DNA of 37,722 nucleotides from Deltaproteobacteria bacterium (lineage in GTDB: Bacteria; UBA10199; SBBF01). Below are positions 851-11,455 of the stretch, piece after piece; within the stretch, counting starts at the first letter, position 1, and every line of letters begins with the position of its first letter. The notes beneath the pieces are model-generated. The model saw only the letters and a list, made by a program, of their open reading frames with translations. It made no database searches and was not told the DNA's origin. The position numbers and the translations under genes were made by a program. The stretch covers positions 1 through 37,722 of the forward strand of contig JACPFC010000002.1 of assembly GCA_016183175.1 (NCBI GenBank). The letters run 5' to 3'.

Positions 851-871
851 ACCGAAAATCGTCTCAAAATT

Positions 872-885
872 GGACGGTACCGTCC
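872..885. promoter_or_regulatory. Candidate sigma54 enhancer (UAS) palindrome, copy 1
   Basis: GGACGGTACCGTCC is a perfect 14-bp palindrome, flanked by further degenerate half-sites (ACCGAAAATCG before, CGAAAATAGGTCG after). Its centre is 130.5 bp before the -12 cytosine of the sigma54 promoter downstream. The same palindrome at the same distance precedes the only other sigma54 promoter found here. Enhancer-binding activators usually bind palindromes about 100-200 bp upstream. Confidence 0.6.
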
Positions 886-955
886 GAAAATAGGTCGATC
901 AGCCAACACAACCGGGAGCAATGAATCACTCGCCATCATTCTAACCCCTTGTTTT

Positions 956-989
956 CCCTACACCCTAAACTCTACACCCTAACCCTGCC
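956..989 (+). repeat. CCCTANN heptad array, copy 1
   Basis: Units are CCCTACA, CCCTAAA, CTCTACA, a 6-nt CCCTAA, and CCCTGCC. The complementary strand has several GGG runs with short loops, a possible G-quadruplex. The array ends 5 bp before the TGGCAC of the sigma54 promoter, as does the copy at 10693. Confidence 0.75.
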
Positions 990-994
990 GGAAA

Positions 995-1010
995 TGGCAC
1001 GAGAATTGCT
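995..1010 (+). promoter_or_regulatory. Sigma54 (RpoN) promoter
   Basis: TGGCAC-GAGAA-TTGCT matches the -24/-12 consensus, with GG and GC separated by exactly 10 nt. The predicted start is near 1021, giving a leader of only about 16 nt that begins with the GGAAGGAGG ribosome site. Confidence 0.85.
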
Positions 1011-1036
1011 TACTCAACAGGGAAGGAGGATTTTTT

Positions 1037-1528
1037 ATGTCCAACGAAATTTCTCAGCAGTCTTATCCTGTTTATCCCGATCCCCGGATGGACCCGTGGG
1101 ATTATCAAGCCGCACTCTCCGGCTTCAAAAACGGGGAAGAATTCAAGAAGGAATATTTTAACCAAGCCAAAAAAGCGGTCGTTTCGGGGGTTGCCGCCGG
1201 GACGGGGGTTTTTGCCGCCGGGTTTGGCCTCTCTGCGGGGGTAGTGAGTGGATTGGATATCTTCCCTGCGGCGGGAGGGTTTTTGATTCGCGCCGGCGTC
1301 GGTCTGTGCCGCGCCGCAAAAATTGTTGGCCTTGCCGCCTGGAATACGGCACAATCGGCCTGGTATTCGCTGGCAGGCGCGGCCTCAACACCGCAGGGGC
1401 AGGAGGTGATAAAAAGTGTTGCCGAATGCGTTGACGGTGCTACACCCGGATCGCCAGCACCCAGTACACCCTTTGCTGGTCTTTGTAATGCAACAAGCGA
1501 GTTCATCCAAAAAATCGAAAAAGAATAA
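1037..1528 (+). CDS. Gly/Ala-rich hydrophobic protein, unknown
   Basis: The 163-residue protein has a polar N terminus (about 1-46), then a long Gly/Ala/Val-rich hydrophobic region (about 47-105) that could form two or three membrane helices or hairpins. The C-terminal part is polar with Cys131 and Cys150; Cys91 lies in the hydrophobic region. There is no classical signal peptide. A strong GGAGG site lies 7 nt before the ATG, and a near-perfect sigma54 promoter directly precedes the gene. A small two-helix membrane protein follows 7 nt after the stop, so the two form an operon. The composition recalls small membrane-inserting proteins such as bacteriocin-like or holin-like ones, but I do not recognise the family and assign no function. 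Confidence 0.75.
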   Translation: MSNEISQQSYPVYPDPRMDPWDYQAALSGFKNGEEFKKEYFNQAKKAVVSGVAAGTGVFAAGFGLSAGVVSGLDIFPAAGGFLIRAGVGLCRAAKIVGLAAWNTAQSAWYSLAGAASTPQGQEVIKSVAECVDGATPGSPAPSTPFAGLCNATSEFIQKIEKE

Positions 1529-1535
1529 ATAGCCT

Positions 1536-1760
1536 ATGAGAAAAGTAGTCAATGGGTTGGTAAGCACGAGTATTGGTTTATTGACAATGGGTGTTGGGAT
1601 TTTCACTTTGATTGATAGGACTCTTCCCGCTCGTTTGGGAGAGGCGAGCATCCCACTTACAAGAAAAACTTCAATCTTTGTGGGTGTCGTTGTGGTTCTC
1701 TGTGGTCTCTGGTTTCTCTATTTTGGCATCAAAAATTTTCTCAAATCCCGCCGACCGTAG
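1536..1760 (+). CDS. Small two-helix membrane protein (74 aa), unknown
   Basis: Two hydrophobic helices are visible: VNGLVSTSIGLLTMGVGIFT (about residues 5-24) and IFVGVVVVLCGLWFLYFGI (about 47-65). A 20-residue loop with Arg and Glu lies between them, and the C-terminal tail is basic (KNFLKSRRP). It begins 7 nt after the preceding gene and has only a weak ribosome site, so translation is probably coupled. A small two-helix partner behind a hydrophobic Gly/Ala-rich protein would suit an immunity, chaperone or membrane-anchoring role; this is inference only. Confidence 0.65.
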   Translation: MRKVVNGLVSTSIGLLTMGVGIFTLIDRTLPARLGEASIPLTRKTSIFVGVVVVLCGLWFLYFGIKNFLKSRRP

Positions 1761-1877
1761 TTTTTTATTTTTTTAAGCAACTCCCACGGTTCGCCAGCCG
1801 AAAACCTTATCAGTCGTGTTGGGGGTAAATTTTTTAGCCCCGATCCTAAAGGACCACTTTGTGGAAGGGGTAATTTC

Positions 1878-2420
1878 ATGGGAGGGAATATGTCAGCTCA
1901 GGTCGCTCTTGTTGCGGAAGGTCAAATTGAACAAATCATCCTTTTAATCCGAGGCCAGAAGGTCATGATCGATGCCGATCTGGCCCATGTTTATGGCGTC
2001 ACTACCAAAAGGCTGAGGGAGCAGGTCCGGCGTAACAAGGTGCGGTTTCCAGCGGATTTCATGTTTCTCCTCACCAAAGAGGAGCATATGGAGGTCGCCG
2101 CAAATTGCGGCCACCTCGCCAGCCTCAAATTCTCACGGTCACTTTCCTACGCTTTTACCGAGTACGGTGCCATTATGCTGGCTAGCATTCTCAATAGTGA
2201 AGTAGCCGTCAGGGCCAGCGTCCAAGTTGTCCGGGCCTTTGTCCGTTTACGCCAGATCATCAACGCCAATAAAGACCTGGCCCAGAAGCTTGAAAAGATG
2301 GAGAAAAAATACGATCACCAATTCAAACTGGTTTTCCAAGTCATTAACCAGCTCATGGTACCGCCATCCCCGCATGGCGTGAAGTCGGAATTCACCAAGG
2401 TTAAAGGCTTTGGGCGATAA
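1878..2420 (+). CDS. ORF6N-domain DNA-binding protein
   Basis: Residues 17-105 match the ORF6N (KilA-N-related) domain of phage and mobile-element proteins: EQIILLIRGQKVMIDADLAH, VYGVTTKRLREQVRRN, RFPADFMFLLTKEE, and SYAFTEYGAIMLASILNSE. A helical, probably coiled-coil segment follows (about 118-155, KDLAQKLEKMEKKYDHQFK). These proteins are common in accessory regions and prophages and are thought to bind DNA. GGAAGGGG lies 7 nt before the ATG used here; an in-frame ATG four codons later also has a GGGAGGG site and is equally plausible. It stands alone. The next 220 bp hold only a repeat and a gene fragment. Confidence 0.85.
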   Translation: MGGNMSAQVALVAEGQIEQIILLIRGQKVMIDADLAHVYGVTTKRLREQVRRNKVRFPADFMFLLTKEEHMEVAANCGHLASLKFSRSLSYAFTEYGAIMLASILNSEVAVRASVQVVRAFVRLRQIINANKDLAQKLEKMEKKYDHQFKLVFQVINQLMVPPSPHGVKSEFTKVKGFGR

Positions 2421-2590
2421 TCCCCCATCCCCCCGACACGGGCAAAACGATTCTCCTTTGAGCATTGGATTAAAAATCATCCATCTGTCAGGGGTTATCT
2501 TCCTGATCCGAAAAAGGAAATTCCTTGATTAGTGAACGAGGGGGAGGGATAAATCATTTTTGTCGTATGGGGTGGACAGAGGAGGCTAGG

Positions 2591-2644
2591 TTGAGCATGC
2601 AAAAGTACAACTGGTCCGCTGTCAGAACCTGACCCCAGGGTTTT
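2591..2644. repeat. Island-flanking direct repeat, left copy
   Basis: This 54-bp segment, beginning TTGAGCATGCAA and ending with AACCTGACCCCAGGGTTTT, matches 4996-5049 at 47 of 54 positions in the same orientation. The copies are 2,405 bp apart and bracket the methyltransferase/HNH/toxin-like cluster. The complement (GGGGTCAGGTTCTGAC) resembles ends of dispersed REP-like elements I recall from environmental genomes. Confidence 0.75.
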
Positions 2645-2647
2645 TTT

Positions 2648-2770
2648 TTAGACTGCACCAGCCTCTTTCCAGCGTTGCATGGCCGGATCGAGATGGAATT
2701 TGAAGAAGTTCTCGAAAGTGATCACATTGGGGGCCTGCTTGTAGTTCGTCAAAAGGATGGTCGAGGACAA
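2648..2770 (-). pseudogene. C-terminal gene fragment
   Basis: On the minus strand 40 codons run from a TTG to a TAA and encode a natural-looking C terminus: LLTNYKQAPNVITFENFFKF and then LDPAMQRWKEAGAV. An in-frame stop lies just upstream and there is no ribosome site. It looks like the tail of a gene whose front was lost when the flanking repeat or island rearranged. I do not recognise the parent family. Confidence 0.35.
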
Positions 2771-2775
2771 TTACG

Positions 2776-2988
2776 TTACAAGGATTGTGCCAATGTTACT
2801 TCAAGCGGTGTTTTCTTTACAGTACTGACCTGCTGAACTGAAAAACCTAAGATGTGTCCTTTTTCATCCACTTTTTCCATGACTAGATCATTATCGGTTG
2901 CCCGAAAATACCCCACCTTATTTTCAAACATAACTTCTAAATAATCTCCTTCTTGGTCATACCAAACTTTTATGTCTTTGCGCTCCAT
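2776..2988 (-). CDS. DUF2283-family protein, probable antitoxin-like partner
   Basis: The 70-residue protein begins MERKDIKVWYDQEGDYLEVM and continues with a beta-strand pattern (DLVMEKVDEKGHILGFSV) typical of DUF2283, a small beta-rich family. AAGGGAG precedes the ATG. Its first 19 bases overlap the end of the upstream nuclease-like gene, so the two are translationally coupled. DUF2283 genes are often found next to small RelE-, BrnT- or barnase-like genes, and a toxin-antitoxin-like pair is the likeliest reading. That role is inferred from context; the family match is by pattern. Confidence 0.75.
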   Translation of the reverse strand: MERKDIKVWYDQEGDYLEVMFENKVGYFRATDNDLVMEKVDEKGHILGFSVQQVSTVKKTPLEVTLAQSL

Positions 2989-3284
2989 AGAATTTCTCCC
3001 TTCTTAATCTTATCAGTCAAATAAGCCGTCAAAATAAAAGCATCCACCTCTTTGGCCTTAACGACAACACACAGAAACTTTCCCCCAACTTGTGTCTTTG
3101 CATAATATCGGTAGTATAAATGAGTATCTTCACTGCTTTTAGATTGTATAACACATTCCGGTTTTAATAAAGCCTCAACAATAGCTTTTTCCATGGGCGC
3201 CATTTCCGGGTGTTCAAGGATATGGGCAAGCCGCTCATCGGTCAGGCGTATTGCTGTCCCTTGGTAATCTTTGAGGTATCGCAT
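2970..3284 (-). CDS. Small nuclease-fold (toxin-like) protein
   Basis: The 104 residues include RLTDERLAHILEHPEM (about 13-28), a central EAL/KPECVIQSKS, LYYRYYAKTQVGGKFLCVVV (about 56-75) and FILTAYLTDKIKKGE. This layout, an N-terminal His-containing helix followed by strands ending in a TAYLTD-type motif, is typical of a family of small proteins related to the barnase-EndoU-RelE-like (PBECR/DUF4258-type) nucleases. AAGGAGGG lies directly upstream of the ATG. It overlaps the DUF2283 gene downstream, the usual arrangement of a toxin-first pair. Catalysis is not shown, and the family assignment is from memory of sequence pattern. Confidence 0.65.
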   Translation of the reverse strand: MRYLKDYQGTAIRLTDERLAHILEHPEMAPMEKAIVEALLKPECVIQSKSSEDTHLYYRYYAKTQVGGKFLCVVVKAKEVDAFILTAYLTDKIKKGEILWSAKT

Positions 3285-3293
3285 TTTCCCTCC

Positions 3294-3671
3294 TTAGCCC
3301 GCCAAGTAATGCTCATAACAACGCTCCCAGGGAACAAAGACTTGCCATCCTTCCTTCTGCGCCCTTGTTATTTCATCAATGAAATCGCCGATGGTGCGAT
3401 GAAAGGGATCATTCACCTTCTCGTCTGTTGCTTCGGTTTTAGAAAATTCGTGGAAGCAGTGATCATCAGGATTGAGCGGTTCAGTGTTGTAAATAAAGAG
3501 TTCAGGAAGCCGAACCTGATCGGCAATAAAAAGATCATCGGGTATCATTTCTTTGATTTGATTGGAAACCGGGGCCGGGGTCAGTCCTTTAGGGTTCGAA
3601 AAAACAATACAACCCCACCTCTTAAAATTACTGGCGTCTCGATACAAATAGTGGAAGCAAATATTTTCCAT
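3294..3671 (-). CDS. Conserved protein of unknown function (125 aa)
   Basis: The sequence (MENICFHYLYRDASNFKRWG, VFSNPKGL, IADQVRLPELF, HCFHEFSKTEATDE) resembles a short, soluble family I have seen in accessory regions, with a strand-rich N terminus and an acidic middle. No catalytic motif is clear. It lies 7 nt after the HNH gene and 9 nt before the toxin-like gene, so all four downstream genes of the island probably share one transcript. GAGG precedes the ATG. No function is assigned. Confidence 0.7.
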   Translation of the reverse strand: MENICFHYLYRDASNFKRWGCIVFSNPKGLTPAPVSNQIKEMIPDDLFIADQVRLPELFIYNTEPLNPDDHCFHEFSKTEATDEKVNDPFHRTIGDFIDEITRAQKEGWQVFVPWERCYEHYLAG

Positions 3672-3678
3672 AGCTACC

Positions 3679-4446
3679 TCAATTTATAAAAATATGATCG
3701 TTGTGATGCTTAAGAAAAGTTGCGTCAGGCACAAAACGATTCGGCAGATTCATTTTTTGTCCCTTATAATCCAGAAAGAAATCTCGTGTCGCCTTGTCTG
3801 ATTTATCATGCAACAATACTTTTGACAAACGGATCTCAAACTCGGCAGTAATTGTCATCAAGCCCCTATCAAAAGCCCTGTCATGAAGCACATTGAGGCA
3901 AAGTCCATTACGGGGATTGACACGATTCTTTTCGTCAACCGACCAAGGCACGATATGACTTGCGTTAAGCAGATCGACAACGGGAAGACCCGTAATGCAA
4001 CATTTAAAATCATACGCCGATAAAACAGCCTTTCGAAAAAATTGCTGATTCACGCGTGCTCGGACAATGGTTTCTCGTTCTTTACCTTCACGAGGTAAAT
4101 CGTCCGTTTTAATATCAGTGACTTGTTCAATGGGTTTATGAAAAGCACCAGCCAAAAACCGCTCACTTTCAAAAGCTAATTTTTCCCAATTGTCATTAAA
4201 CTCCTCCCAAATTTCTTCCTCGCCTTTGGAACCATGAGAAGCTCCTTTGATATTCCTCTTCTTTAACGAGGGATCGAGTCTTGCAAAGTTCGCCAACTTC
4301 CATGAAACCGCCGAAGGGGTCCTGTCTATGGCTTTGGCAAGTTCAATAATTTGAGGATTACGGTTATGAATACTTCCAAAAGAAATTTTACAATAAAGGT
4401 TAAAGGCAAGTATCAGTTCCTCTCTGGTCCATTTGCTGTTACGCAT
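3679..4446 (-). CDS. HNH endonuclease, probable restriction enzyme
   Basis: The 255-residue protein ends in an intact HNH_2-type nuclease domain: CCITGLPVVDLLNASHIVPW (about 165-185), then NPRNGLCLNVLHDRAFDRG and LSKVLLHD. The catalytic His of HIVPW, the Asn of NGLCLN and the His of LHDRAFD are all present. The N terminus (KWTREELILAFNLYCKISFG) and the AVSWKLANFARLDPS segment are typical of HNH restriction endonucleases paired with cytosine methyltransferases. I chose the ATG at 4446 because it overlaps the methyltransferase stop by 8 nt. The partner methyltransferase is truncated, so an active enzyme here would have no protecting methylase in this window. Confidence 0.8.
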   Translation of the reverse strand: MRNSKWTREELILAFNLYCKISFGSIHNRNPQIIELAKAIDRTPSAVSWKLANFARLDPSLKKRNIKGASHGSKGEEEIWEEFNDNWEKLAFESERFLAGAFHKPIEQVTDIKTDDLPREGKERETIVRARVNQQFFRKAVLSAYDFKCCITGLPVVDLLNASHIVPWSVDEKNRVNPRNGLCLNVLHDRAFDRGLMTITAEFEIRLSKVLLHDKSDKATRDFFLDYKGQKMNLPNRFVPDATFLKHHNDHIFIN

Positions 4447-4873
4447 TTGAGATTGTCCAGAGAGTTCTGTCCTTCTCATGGCTGACAAGATTTTTGACAT
4501 TTTCCAGCAGGAAGGCATCCGGCCGTTTGTCTTTCAGGATCCTTTTGATTTCGAAAAAGAGGGTGCCCTGTGTCGGGTCGTCAAACCCGTGAGGTCTGCC
4601 AAGAGAATTTTTCTTTGATACTCCCGAAATGGAAAAGGGCTGACATGGAAAACCAGCCACCAGAATGTTGTGATCCGGTATTTTGGCACTTGCCATTTCC
4701 CTGATGTCACCTGCCGGCATTTCACCAAAGTTGGTTTGATAGGTAAGTTGGGCAAACTTGTTCCACTCAGATGAGAAAACGCAGGTCCCACCAGCCGCTT
4801 CAAACGCGATTCTCATGCCACCGATGCCGGCAAACAGGTCAATAAACTTGAAAGTGTGTAATTGAGGGGCCAT
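4439..4873 (-). pseudogene. DNA cytosine-5 methyltransferase, C-terminally truncated
   Basis: The 144 residues carry the N-terminal half of a Dcm-type methyltransferase: motif I FIDLFAGIGGMR (AdoMet binding, about 10-21), the motif IV catalytic loop GFPCQPFS (about 74-81, with the nucleophile Cys), and motif VI ENVKNL (about 124-129). After VSHEKDRT the frame runs into WTISNA and stops. Motifs VIII-X and the target-recognition domain, normally another 180-250 residues, are missing. The end fuses directly to the start of the HNH gene, which looks like an internal deletion. It is probably inactive. Misassembly is an alternative. Confidence 0.8.
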
Positions 4874-9224: not shown

Positions 9225-10283
9225 TCAATTGGAATTAGAGCGTTTTGACTCATAGGGATCTCCGTTCACTGTATAACCTCCATTAGCCTCAACATAGATG
9301 AATATGGAATCGTCAATAATATGCGCCTCGGGCAAAAGACCTCCGGCGCCTGCTTCCGTCTGGTAGATCTCCGTGCCGATCGCAGACAGCCGGGAGAGGA
9401 CTTCGGAATGGGGGTGGCCGTAGGTGTTGTTATCCCCCACGGAGATAATCGAGATGGTCGGCCGAAGTGTCTCAAGGAAATATTCTGAACTGCTCGTCTT
9501 GCTTCCGTGATGATTGACATGAAGCAGGTCCACTTCGCCGACAAGCGGGGCGACAAGGCCTTCGGCATCGACGGTGGTTTCGGCTCCGGATTGTCCCCCG
9601 CCGGGCAAGTCACCTGCCGTAAAATACTGAAAATCTCCGTAGGTAATTAAAAGCCCCATGCTCGCGCCGTTGTCATCGTCCTCGACGGGGAGCGATCTGC
9701 CGTCGGCCGTCACCCCGTTATTAATGAGGCAGTCAATGACAACGCCGTCGCCGATATCAATTTCATCCCCCGGCAAGAGGGTTTGCCGGGATGAGGCGAC
9801 GGCGGTTGCGTAGTGATCAAAGACGACCGACGCATCCGACGGCGTGCCGCTGTTGTCATAGGTGATGGACGGAAGAATGTCGTCTTTTGTTTCCAATTCT
9901 CCGTCATTTCCTGCAACTACCTCATAAATGCCGCCGATATGGTCGGCATCGTAGTGGGAGACGAAGAGATAATCCAAATGGGTGACGCCAAGATGGGAAA
10001 AGAGGGGGAGGATATCTTCAATCCCGTCCTCAATTCCACCCCCATCTATTAATATAGTTTGTCCAGAAGGGGTGATGAGAAGCGTGGCATCCCCTTGGCC
10101 GACGTCGATGGCGATGATGGTCAAAATACCGCTGATGGTTTCCGGTTCGTCAATTGAAGGAGAGGAGTCATAGGATTGATCTGATTTAAGATTTAAAGAT
10201 CCGCCGCAATGAATCAAACACAGCAATAGGGCCGAAATAAAAAACCCGCCGGCCGACGCCCGCGGGTTTTTCAGATAGCTCAT
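9225..10283 (-). CDS. ComEC-type metallo-beta-lactamase-fold lipoprotein
   Basis: The 352-residue protein has an N-terminal signal (GGFFISALLLCLIHCGGS) with Cys26 as probable lipid site, though His at -1 is unusual. The MBL domain matches the extracellular hydrolase part of ComEC/Rec2: AIDVGQGDATLLITPSGQT (58-76), VSHYDADHIGG (108-118, metal ligands), VNHHGSKTSSS and NTYGHPHSEVL. ComEC-type domains are thought to degrade one strand of incoming DNA; here the domain is a free-standing surface lipoprotein without the channel. The ATG at 10283 was chosen for its AGGGGTGG ribosome site and because it starts the signal peptide. It is divergent from the sigma54-driven lamin-tail operon. Confidence 0.85.
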   Translation of the reverse strand: MSYLKNPRASAGGFFISALLLCLIHCGGSLNLKSDQSYDSSPSIDEPETISGILTIIAIDVGQGDATLLITPSGQTILIDGGGIEDGIEDILPLFSHLGVTHLDYLFVSHYDADHIGGIYEVVAGNDGELETKDDILPSITYDNSGTPSDASVVFDHYATAVASSRQTLLPGDEIDIGDGVVIDCLINNGVTADGRSLPVEDDDNGASMGLLITYGDFQYFTAGDLPGGGQSGAETTVDAEGLVAPLVGEVDLLHVNHHGSKTSSSEYFLETLRPTISIISVGDNNTYGHPHSEVLSRLSAIGTEIYQTEAGAGGLLPEAHIIDDSIFIYVEANGGYTVNGDPYESKRSNSN

Positions 10284-10313
10284 TAAGAGCCACCCCTGAC
10301 TAAGGTAATTCCA

Positions 10314-10341
10314 AGTATAGAGCATCCTCATAAAAAGTCAA
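10314..10341 (-). promoter_or_regulatory. Sigma70 promoter of the MBL lipoprotein
   Basis: On the minus strand TTGACT (10341-10336) and TATACT (10319-10314) have a 16-nt spacer. The predicted start is about 10307, some 24 nt before the ATG. Confidence 0.65.
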
Positions 10342-10505: not shown

Positions 10506-10594
10506 ACCAAGTCGATCTCCAAGCAAATTTCATGCCACTTTTTTTCTCCTTCATCTGCGAATTAAACGCATTTGAAGCTCCTCTCCAAAAACCA

Positions 10595-10636
10595 ACCGTC
10601 CGATTTTCGGACGGTACCGTCCGAATTTCGGTCGGT
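10595..10636. promoter_or_regulatory. Candidate sigma54 enhancer (UAS) cluster, copy 2
   Basis: The centre is a perfect 20-bp palindrome (10606-10625) containing GGACGGTACCGTCC. Flanking half-sites ACCGTCCGA (10595-10603) and CGGTCGGT (10629-10636) make four half-sites in alternating orientation. Its centre is 131.5 bp before the -12 cytosine of the sigma54 promoter, within 1 bp of the spacing at the other locus. Confidence 0.65.
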
Positions 10637-10692: not shown

Positions 10693-10727
10693 CCCTAAAC
10701 CCTACACCCCAAACCCTACACCCTGCC
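10693..10727 (+). repeat. CCCTANN heptad array, copy 2
   Basis: Five exact heptads: CCCTAAA, CCCTACA, CCCCAAA, CCCTACA, CCCTGCC. As in copy 1 it ends 5 bp before the TGGCAC of a sigma54 promoter. The G-rich strand has five G-runs with 4-nt loops. Confidence 0.8.
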
Positions 10728-10732
10728 GTAAA

Positions 10733-10748
10733 TGGCACGCAATTTGCT
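10733..10748 (+). promoter_or_regulatory. Sigma54 (RpoN) promoter
   Basis: TGGCAC-GCAAT-TTGCT matches the consensus with exact GG-N10-GC spacing. The predicted start is about 10759, giving a 52-nt leader to the ATG at 10811. Confidence 0.85.
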
Positions 10749-10810
10749 TTCCGAAATCGGCGCCGATGCGATTTGTGCATCGGACAGTGCACGGCAAAGG
10801 GGGCCAGGCG

Positions 10811-11455
10811 ATGCGAACCTTCTTAATGGTTTGGGGATTCATTCTCTCATTCACGATAGCGCCGGCCCCCTTTGCCTATTCCCTCCAAAAGGCCGAAACC
10901 GAAATGGCCCGCATCCGCAAGAGTGAGCCGGCCTTTTCGGAAATTGCGCAAGAGGCCTTCAGGAGGGAAAAACTCGATCTGGGGCAGATTCAGGAATGGA
11001 AAAAGAAGATGAAGGCGGCGCCCTGGCTCCCCACCCTTTATGCCGGTTACGACCGGGCGTTGAGAAAAACCTCCGGCATCAGCATCAGCGACAATGTCTC
11101 GGTCTCGACAAGCGGCGTTGCTGTCGGCCCCGACGAAACCGATCAGGACGAAACGCTTTTTAACGGGGACACGCTCCGTTTTCGCGCCGTCTGGCAGTTG
11201 GACGAGGTGGTCTTTCATCGATCCACACTCGCCGCCAGCCAGGAGGCGCGGGATATTTCCAAAAGCCGTCTGGCTCTAAGCGACTATCTCTTCAAAATCT
11301 ACTCGGAACGGCGCGAGGCTCAAGCCAAGTATTATCTCTTCAAGGGGAGTGGAGGCGCCAAATCGCTTCTGTTACGCGAAAAAATCGAGGCGTTAACGGA
11401 CCAGCTCGATCTGTTCACGGAGGGGCGATTTTCCGACCGGTGGAGGAGGGAATGA
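10811..11455 (+). CDS. Secreted periplasmic protein of unknown function (214 aa)
   Basis: A signal peptide (MRTFLMVWGFILSFTIAPAP, cleavage near FAYS) precedes a helical, charged protein. Residues about 65-150 (PWLPTLYAGYDRALRKTSGI, then RFRAVWQLDEVVFHRSTLA) and the helix LSDYLFKIYSERREAQAKYY resemble the N-terminal strand-helix pattern of TolC-like outer-membrane factors. The protein is far too short to be one. An upstream in-frame ATG at 10766 has no ribosome site and lies 7 nt after the predicted start, so 10811, with AAGGGGGCC before it, is used. It is followed by the lamin-tail lipoprotein with an ATGA overlap, both under the sigma54 promoter. Family unknown. Confidence 0.75.
   Translation: MRTFLMVWGFILSFTIAPAPFAYSLQKAETEMARIRKSEPAFSEIAQEAFRREKLDLGQIQEWKKKMKAAPWLPTLYAGYDRALRKTSGISISDNVSVSTSGVAVGPDETDQDETLFNGDTLRFRAVWQLDEVVFHRSTLAASQEARDISKSRLALSDYLFKIYSERREAQAKYYLFKGSGGAKSLLLREKIEALTDQLDLFTEGRFSDRWRRE

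Follow-up and report, generated by a model that had tools for sequence, protein, structure and literature searches.

A probable sigma54-controlled set of antibacterial effector-immunity pairs linked to a T3SS*-like type III secretion system

A gene pair close to the beginning of the window, i.e., the entire stretch of 37,722 nucleotides analyzed here, probably belongs to a sigma54 regulon of antibacterial effector-immunity pairs that is tied to a type III secretion system (T3SS) resembling the T3SS* of myxobacteria. The features of the window that relate to this regulon are listed in Table 1. In the following, G000 denotes the own genome, C-numbers its contigs (C2 being the window), and L-numbers the sequence stretches examined; other G-numbers denote other genomes, among which G007 belongs to another family of the same order.

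RESULTS

Sigma54 promoter and upstream activator site

The earlier note on this DNA had claimed a sigma54 promoter with exact GG-N10-GC spacing 26 bp before an ATG. Our analysis confirmed this element at 995-1010: the GG (996-997) and the GC (1008-1009) of TGGCACGAGAATTGCT are separated by N10, and the element lies 26 bp 5' of the ATG at 1037. We infer that transcription starts from here; a start about 12 nt past the GC, near 1021, would result in a 16-nt leader that opens with GGGAAGGAGGA. Such a short leader is ordinary in the regulon, where the -12 element ends 24 to 30 nt before the start codon in the effector genes compared.

The probability that this match is due to chance is negligible. 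Although matches with two mismatches allowed occurred at the frequency expected, there were 2 perfect matches to TGGCACN5TTGCW in the window versus 0 in 100 shuffles, and 30 in the own genome versus 0 for the reversed motif. These counts rule out a chance promoter, and the distance between promoter and upstream activator site (UAS) is conserved as well. Further arguments against chance are the presence of rpoN in the own genome (E 1e-63), the absence of which would have refuted the claim according to the earlier note, of 13 clear sigma54-activator (EBP) domains, and of one perfect site among the 30 that is located 92 bp 5' of the gene for the ammonium transporter (AmtB, PF00909), a classical sigma54 target that was used as positive control. 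Conservation of the -24/-12 bases in relatives had also been named as a test of the claim, and these bases are kept before all copies of the gene with upstream sequence examined (C58, C133, L116, L117, and L119).

The alignment of both promoters of the window (at 995 and 10733) revealed a common upstream palindrome, the repeat unit of which is the 21-bp dyad ACCGTCCGAttttCGGACGGT, present in tandem copies at 858-899 and 10595-10636. The 42-bp double dyad at 858-899 (ATCGTCTCAAAATTGGACGGT followed by ACCGTCCGAAAATAGGTCGAT) had not been mentioned in the earlier note, although it lies within the region described there. It is situated 95 bp upstream of the promoter, a distance typical of sigma54 activator sites, which spans 58 to 129 bp across the set. 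Dyad and promoter occur together at about 18 loci of the own genome, and five perfect copies of the dyad center GGACGGTACCGTCC (872-885) exist genome-wide, all of which adjoin promoters of the regulon set. With at most two mismatches, the dyad was found 24 times in the own genome, 13 times in G005, twice in G006, and 9 times in G007, compared to 0 to 1 times for the reversed pattern. In ~465 kb of own DNA, a high-scoring -24/-12 element was found at a distance of 58 to 129 bp from 15 of the 17 dyad clusters, and four clusters are flanked by such elements on either side. These statistics stem from whole-genome pattern searches and from the ~465 kb of own stretches, which were picked partly for containing promoters, so that the null for the association of dyad and promoter is conservative. 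Additional dyad sites (on C28, C96, twice on C32, and in relatives) mostly fit the same layout.

A tandem dyad at such a distance from a promoter is the layout expected of an enhancer-binding-protein site, and the one at 858-899 is the likely activator site. Its conservation strengthens the earlier proposal that expression would be activator dependent. A candidate activator is the FHA-type EBP encoded at C7:21402-23033, which is the best full-length match to the FHA-EBP that adjoins the T3SS cluster in G001 and G007.

Repeats of the CCCTAAA/CCCTACA type are present on the same strand at six promoters, namely, in the window (956-984 and 10693-10720) and on C5, C32, C58, and C88; four further blocks of this type in the DNA examined are without promoter. 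The 229-aa ORF that follows the second promoter of the window (TGGCACGCAATTTGCT) matched no Pfam family. Next to this locus, a sigma54-like element, TGGCATGAAATTTGCT, at 10522-10537 on the minus strand points away from the UAS at 10595-10636 and toward an ORF (9225-10331) that was judged by eye to be MBL-fold-like.

Table 1. Features of the window related to the proposed regulon
Feature	Position	Strand	Basis
UAS dyad 1, ATCGTCTCAAAATTGGACGGT; candidate EBP site	858-878	.	Matches the 21-bp dyad common to about 18 own-genome promoters
UAS dyad 2, ACCGTCCGAAAATAGGTCGAT; tandem copy next to dyad 1	879-899	.	Alignment, genome pattern searches
CCCTACA/CCCTAAA-type repeat between UAS and -24 element	956-984	+	Immediately precedes the -24 element in six promoters of the set
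Sigma54 -24/-12 promoter TGGCAC-N5-TTGCT, TGGCACGAGAATTGCT	995-1010	+	Consensus match, shuffle and genome counts
Shine-Dalgarno GGGAAGGAGGA and predicted start of transcription (near 1021)	1021-1031	+	Sequence; start inferred from -12 spacing
Candidate effector/toxin, 163 aa; Gly/Ala-rich hydrophobic middle, no N-terminal signal peptide	1037-1528	+	Paralogues, hydropathy
Variable C-terminal stretch of candidate toxin (residues ~127-163)	1415-1525	+	Co-varies with partner; block-wise identity
74-aa candidate immunity protein with two hydrophobic helices (2-TM)	1536-1760	+	Short gap after toxin stop
Second tandem UAS	10595-10636	.	Pattern match, alignment with 858-899
Second sigma54 promoter of the set, TGGCACGCAATTTGCT	10733-10748	+	Perfect match; layout as at first promoter; absent from earlier note
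229-aa ORF after second promoter	10766-11455	+	Likely signal peptide from internal ATG

Type III secretion genes in the regulon

The sctV gene on C58, which encodes the T3SS export gate, scored 720.1 bits against TIGR01399 (cut-off, 692.25), whereas the FlhA model stayed below its cut-off. In G007, where sctV is also found behind a UAS and a promoter, the TIGR01399 score was 685.7, i.e., just below the cut-off, compared to 586.8 for FlhA. A flagellar identity of sctV was rejected on the basis of these NCBIfam scores; the true FlhA of G004, which served as control, scored the opposite way. A single UAS on C58 lies between sctV and a paralogue of the 163-aa protein gene, flanked by the diverging promoters TGGCATGGGAATTGCT (2758, plus strand) and TGGCACAGCTCTTGCA (2465, minus strand). 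An operon under a UAS on C5 encodes small coiled-coil proteins, one of which scored exactly at the cut-off of the SseC translocator model (30.2 versus 30.2). A similarly arranged operon follows a UAS of this kind in G007, with no SseC match among the members tested.

Neither SctR nor SctJ was matched in the own bin, and the type III machine is thus incomplete here; since sctV is located 300 bp from a contig end, the remaining T3SS genes are probably unbinned. FliP and FliF were not matched in G000 either. SctR/FliP was present in 7 of the 8 genomes of the order, and the T3SS cluster of G001 encodes SctR, SctN, SctJ-like, SctQ/FliM-like, SctL, and YscD/FHA-like proteins. G004 possesses effectors with the marker domain described below, and its only FliP match sits in a flagellar cluster. 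Delivery by a T6SS was rejected, as VipB was found in none of the 8 order genomes.

On C91 (L090), a sigma54-like promoter precedes the gene for a sigma-70-family factor (1007-1603), and this gene and that for a large EBP (1818-4559) are divergent; the sigma-70-family factor resembles one encoded in the T3SS cluster of G001. A UAS and a promoter are also present 5' of a ComM/YifB-like gene in G000 (C88, L088 4600-4760). A ComM/YifB-like protein is encoded beside sctV in G007 (L175), and a conserved link is possible.

Candidate effectors and their partners

The regulon includes scattered genes without signal peptides, several of which encode peptidoglycan-attacking enzymes. Domains above the cut-off were NlpC/P60 (C17), SLT (C109), YkuD (C32:22765), and the VgrG3-like PF21277 (C32:20417, 1.6e-50). 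The C125 effector matched YkuD/Tlde1 below the cut-off, and that at C32:15926 was judged by eye to be L,D-transpeptidase-like. Most of these enzyme genes are followed by a gene for a signal-peptide or membrane protein (identified by hydropathy or by eye), and the window pair has the same layout. The partner of the VgrG3-like protein is the lysozyme inhibitor LprI (PF07007, 1.1e-17), a domain already proposed to provide immunity to T6SS peptidoglycan hydrolases (PMC8867033, PMC12135965). The gene for the SLT-domain effector on C109 (15519-16250; L086), located behind a UAS and a perfect promoter, is frameshifted near its start, which may indicate either a pseudogene or an assembly error.

Five effectors have a common N-terminal domain, A6, which was used as marker, and differ in their C termini. 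Among the 46 genomes of the phylum searched, A6 was found only in G000, G005, G001, and G004, all of which belong to one order. In G001 and G004, the C-terminal parts joined to A6 are an SLT domain (25.5 bits against a cut-off of 21.3), a CHAP-like domain that scored below the cut-off, an L,D-transpeptidase-like domain (by eye), and, in two further proteins, C termini without recognized domain. Of these five G001 and G004 genes, four are followed by a signal-peptide or membrane ORF, four have a promoter-like element at most 50 bp from the start, and three have the dyad core GTCYSAAAATNGGAC 80 to 110 bp further 5', in one case as two copies that are 21 bp apart as in the window. No significant homology was detected between A6 and A7, another N-terminal domain of effectors. 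With regard to a possible N-terminal export signal, Ile is the fourth or fifth residue of 10 among 11 effectors compared to a background of 20%, a figure based on sequences that are not all independent. Gene starts were taken from a simple ORF caller. A calpain-like protease (PF00648, 3.6e-44) encoded in G005 (G005:C168; L118 1047-2228) begins with the marker domain also found at the N terminus of the cell-wall effectors, and its gene follows a sigma54 promoter, the UAS of which is also that of sctV.

The 163-aa protein and its 74-aa partner

The Gly/Ala-rich hydrophobic protein described in the earlier note is real, with paralogues at C58:2904 (58% identity) and C133:4671; outside the own genome, relatives were detected only in G005 among the genomes searched. 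The same applies to the two-helix partner, which travels with the 163-aa gene: a 71- to 78-aa protein of this type is encoded 3' of every copy of the toxin gene with downstream sequence examined, and both genes were found together in C58, C133, L116, L117, and L119, as the earlier note had suggested checking. The candidate toxin has neither A6 nor A7, and all it has in common with another effector is its MSNEI start, identical in the C32:15926 effector. No Pfam family matched the toxin above the cut-off, a PDB sequence search with the toxin and one effector returned nothing convincing, and AlphaFold2 (4 sequences) produced a toxin model with a pLDDT of 37 and no usable fold. Membrane damage is a guess, suggested by the glycine-rich hydrophobic stretch and the membrane-bound partner. 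A role in anti-phage defense was discarded, as no PADLOC model matched. Directly 3' of the pair is a gene for an ORF6N-domain (phage anti-repressor-like) protein (1878-2420), which is also present downstream in L116.

The strongest evidence on the function of the pair is the co-variation of the toxin C terminus with the partner. In the comparison of C2 with L117, identity amounted to 99% for the toxin body but to only 30% for the toxin C terminus and 52% for the partner; the corresponding values for C133 and L119 were 95%, 39%, and 44%, and those for C2 and L116 were 98%, 100%, and 100%. When the window was aligned with L117, the flanks were 98 to 99% identical, as compared to about 36 to 66% over roughly 1400-1700. 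This block corresponds to the last ~37 toxin residues and most of the partner gene, and identity recovers at the end of the partner. Tip and partner thus vary together while the remainder is 95 to 99% identical, which is the pattern expected of matched toxin and immunity proteins. The earlier note had referred to an unknown pair; the pairing stands, and the genes can now be described more closely as probably encoding a toxin and its immunity protein, within a regulon linked to a T3SS.

Several segments of G005 are 96 to 99.9% identical to G000, versus 78 to 84% for core genes, which points to recent transfer or misbinning. Toxin/T3SS segments with this level of identity are L182 versus L089, L118 versus L082, and L116 and L117 versus the window (two genera). 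Because of this transfer or misbinning, part of the G005 evidence is not independent, and safer independent evidence is provided by L119 (83%) and L181 (78 to 84%).

DISCUSSION

We propose that an EBP recognizes the tandem dyad (858-899) and stimulates the sigma54-RNA polymerase at the promoter (995-1010). The toxin and its protector would thus not be made unless the activator is on, and sctV, the SseC-like operon, and the scattered effector genes, most of which have an adjacent partner, would be turned on in the same way. The 163-aa protein is most likely a membrane-disrupting effector, and its delivery into neighboring bacteria would be the task of a T3SS akin to the needleless T3SS* of myxobacteria. 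The 74-aa protein would sit in the inner membrane of the producer, recognize the variable C-terminal ~37 residues of the toxin, and neutralize it. The presence of both peptidoglycan-attacking and putative membrane-active pairs under the T3SS switch suggests that the machine is aimed at other bacteria.

Three other explanations need to be weighed against this mechanism. It is unlikely that the toxin-immunity pair is part of the same regulon but leaves the cell by another route, such as flagellar export, vesicles, a T4SS, a Tad-like pilus, or an unknown system, with the T3SS genes merely being co-regulated. Such a route would fit the own bin, which lacks the T3SS core, and G004, which combines marker-domain effectors with a single FliP match that is flagellar. 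However, in G000 both sctV and the SseC operon lie behind this UAS, as do sctV and an operon of similar type in another family, and one UAS is common to sctV and a toxin paralogue; moreover, G000 has no FliP/FliF match, and a T6SS was not found in the 8 order genomes. Targeting of eukaryotes (protists) by T3SS substrates, with second genes that encode accessory rather than immunity proteins, appears quite improbable: several effectors are peptidoglycan enzymes, one of which is paired with a lysozyme inhibitor, and the partner co-varies with the toxin C terminus. The signal peptides of the partners also make it unlikely that they are cytoplasmic T3SS chaperones. Two points speak for eukaryotic targets: it is eukaryotic membranes that classical T3SSs and SseC translocators work on, and one G005 effector is a calpain-like protease.

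Highly improbable is the third possibility, in which 1037-1760 would encode a holin of the phage type or just a common membrane module of two genes, next to an incidental promoter. There is a weak match to the Pfam holin PF07332, and the phage-like ORF6N anti-repressor gene is located downstream, but promoter and UAS are kept in the paralogues, and this layout recurs in several operons for other toxins. A holin and a phage or plasmid origin were rejected, as no PHROG, phage, or plasmid match was found and the PF07332 match (11.8 bits) was below the cut-off of 28.4.

The preferred reading, a T3SS-linked regulon of antibacterial pairs, has parallels in several known systems. Prey lysis by Myxococcus xanthus depends on its T3SS*, the only T3SS for which a role in bacterial predation has been shown; the published reports describe its effectors as unknown and speculate on toxin-immunity pairs (PMC10433427, PMC12075869). 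This needleless system, which operates with Kil/Tad, resembles that of the order studied here in its non-flagellar SctV, SctR, SctN, and SctJ-type core, in the FHA and TPR proteins, and in its role, as an attack on bacteria is proposed here and prey lysis requires the system in Myxococcus. It differs in that our genome has candidate effectors and immunity genes under a common sigma54 UAS and in that an SseC-like protein is encoded here. In Desulfovibrio vulgaris, sigma54, the EBP DVUA0100, and a UAS control T3SS operons and a distant predicted effector gene, which in layout resembles the EBP, UAS, and sigma54 promoters over T3SS genes reported here; in contrast to the present regulon, no toxin-immunity pairs or peptidoglycan-hydrolase effectors are described in the available part of that report (PMC4641369). 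Antibacterial T6SS effector-immunity pairs include VgrG3, Tlde1, and LysM/LprI (PMC9927483, PMC8867033, PMC12135965). The likeness to these pairs consists of the toxin domains (PF21277 and YkuD/Tlde1), the signal-peptide partners, LprI, and the combination of a marker with swapped toxin domains, whereas the order has no T6SS match and the genes are regulated together with T3SS genes. Pore-forming colicins are hydrophobic toxins with a small inner-membrane immunity protein of matched specificity. The window pair is similar in its hydrophobic candidate toxin, small membrane partner, and probably matched specificity; however, no sequence similarity was found, regulation differs, and no export domain was recognized in the window toxin.

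T3SSs are known mainly as anti-eukaryote weapons, and our search of the open-access PMC literature found no description of antibacterial T3SS effector-immunity pairs. We consider it moderately probable that the T3SS deploys a polymorphic antibacterial arsenal of peptidoglycan hydrolases and a new family of membrane toxins, in which each effector has its immunity protein and a single sigma54 activator switches everything on together, and that the window pair founds this family of membrane toxins. In an uncultured groundwater bacterium, regulatory DNA alone yielded ~10 candidate effectors, most of which are accompanied by a candidate immunity gene. This list, together with the A6 marker, which was confined to one order among the 46 genomes searched, would make the cargo of a predation-type T3SS directly testable by means of cloned small gene pairs, and the co-varying toxin tip and partner may serve as a ready system for specificity studies.
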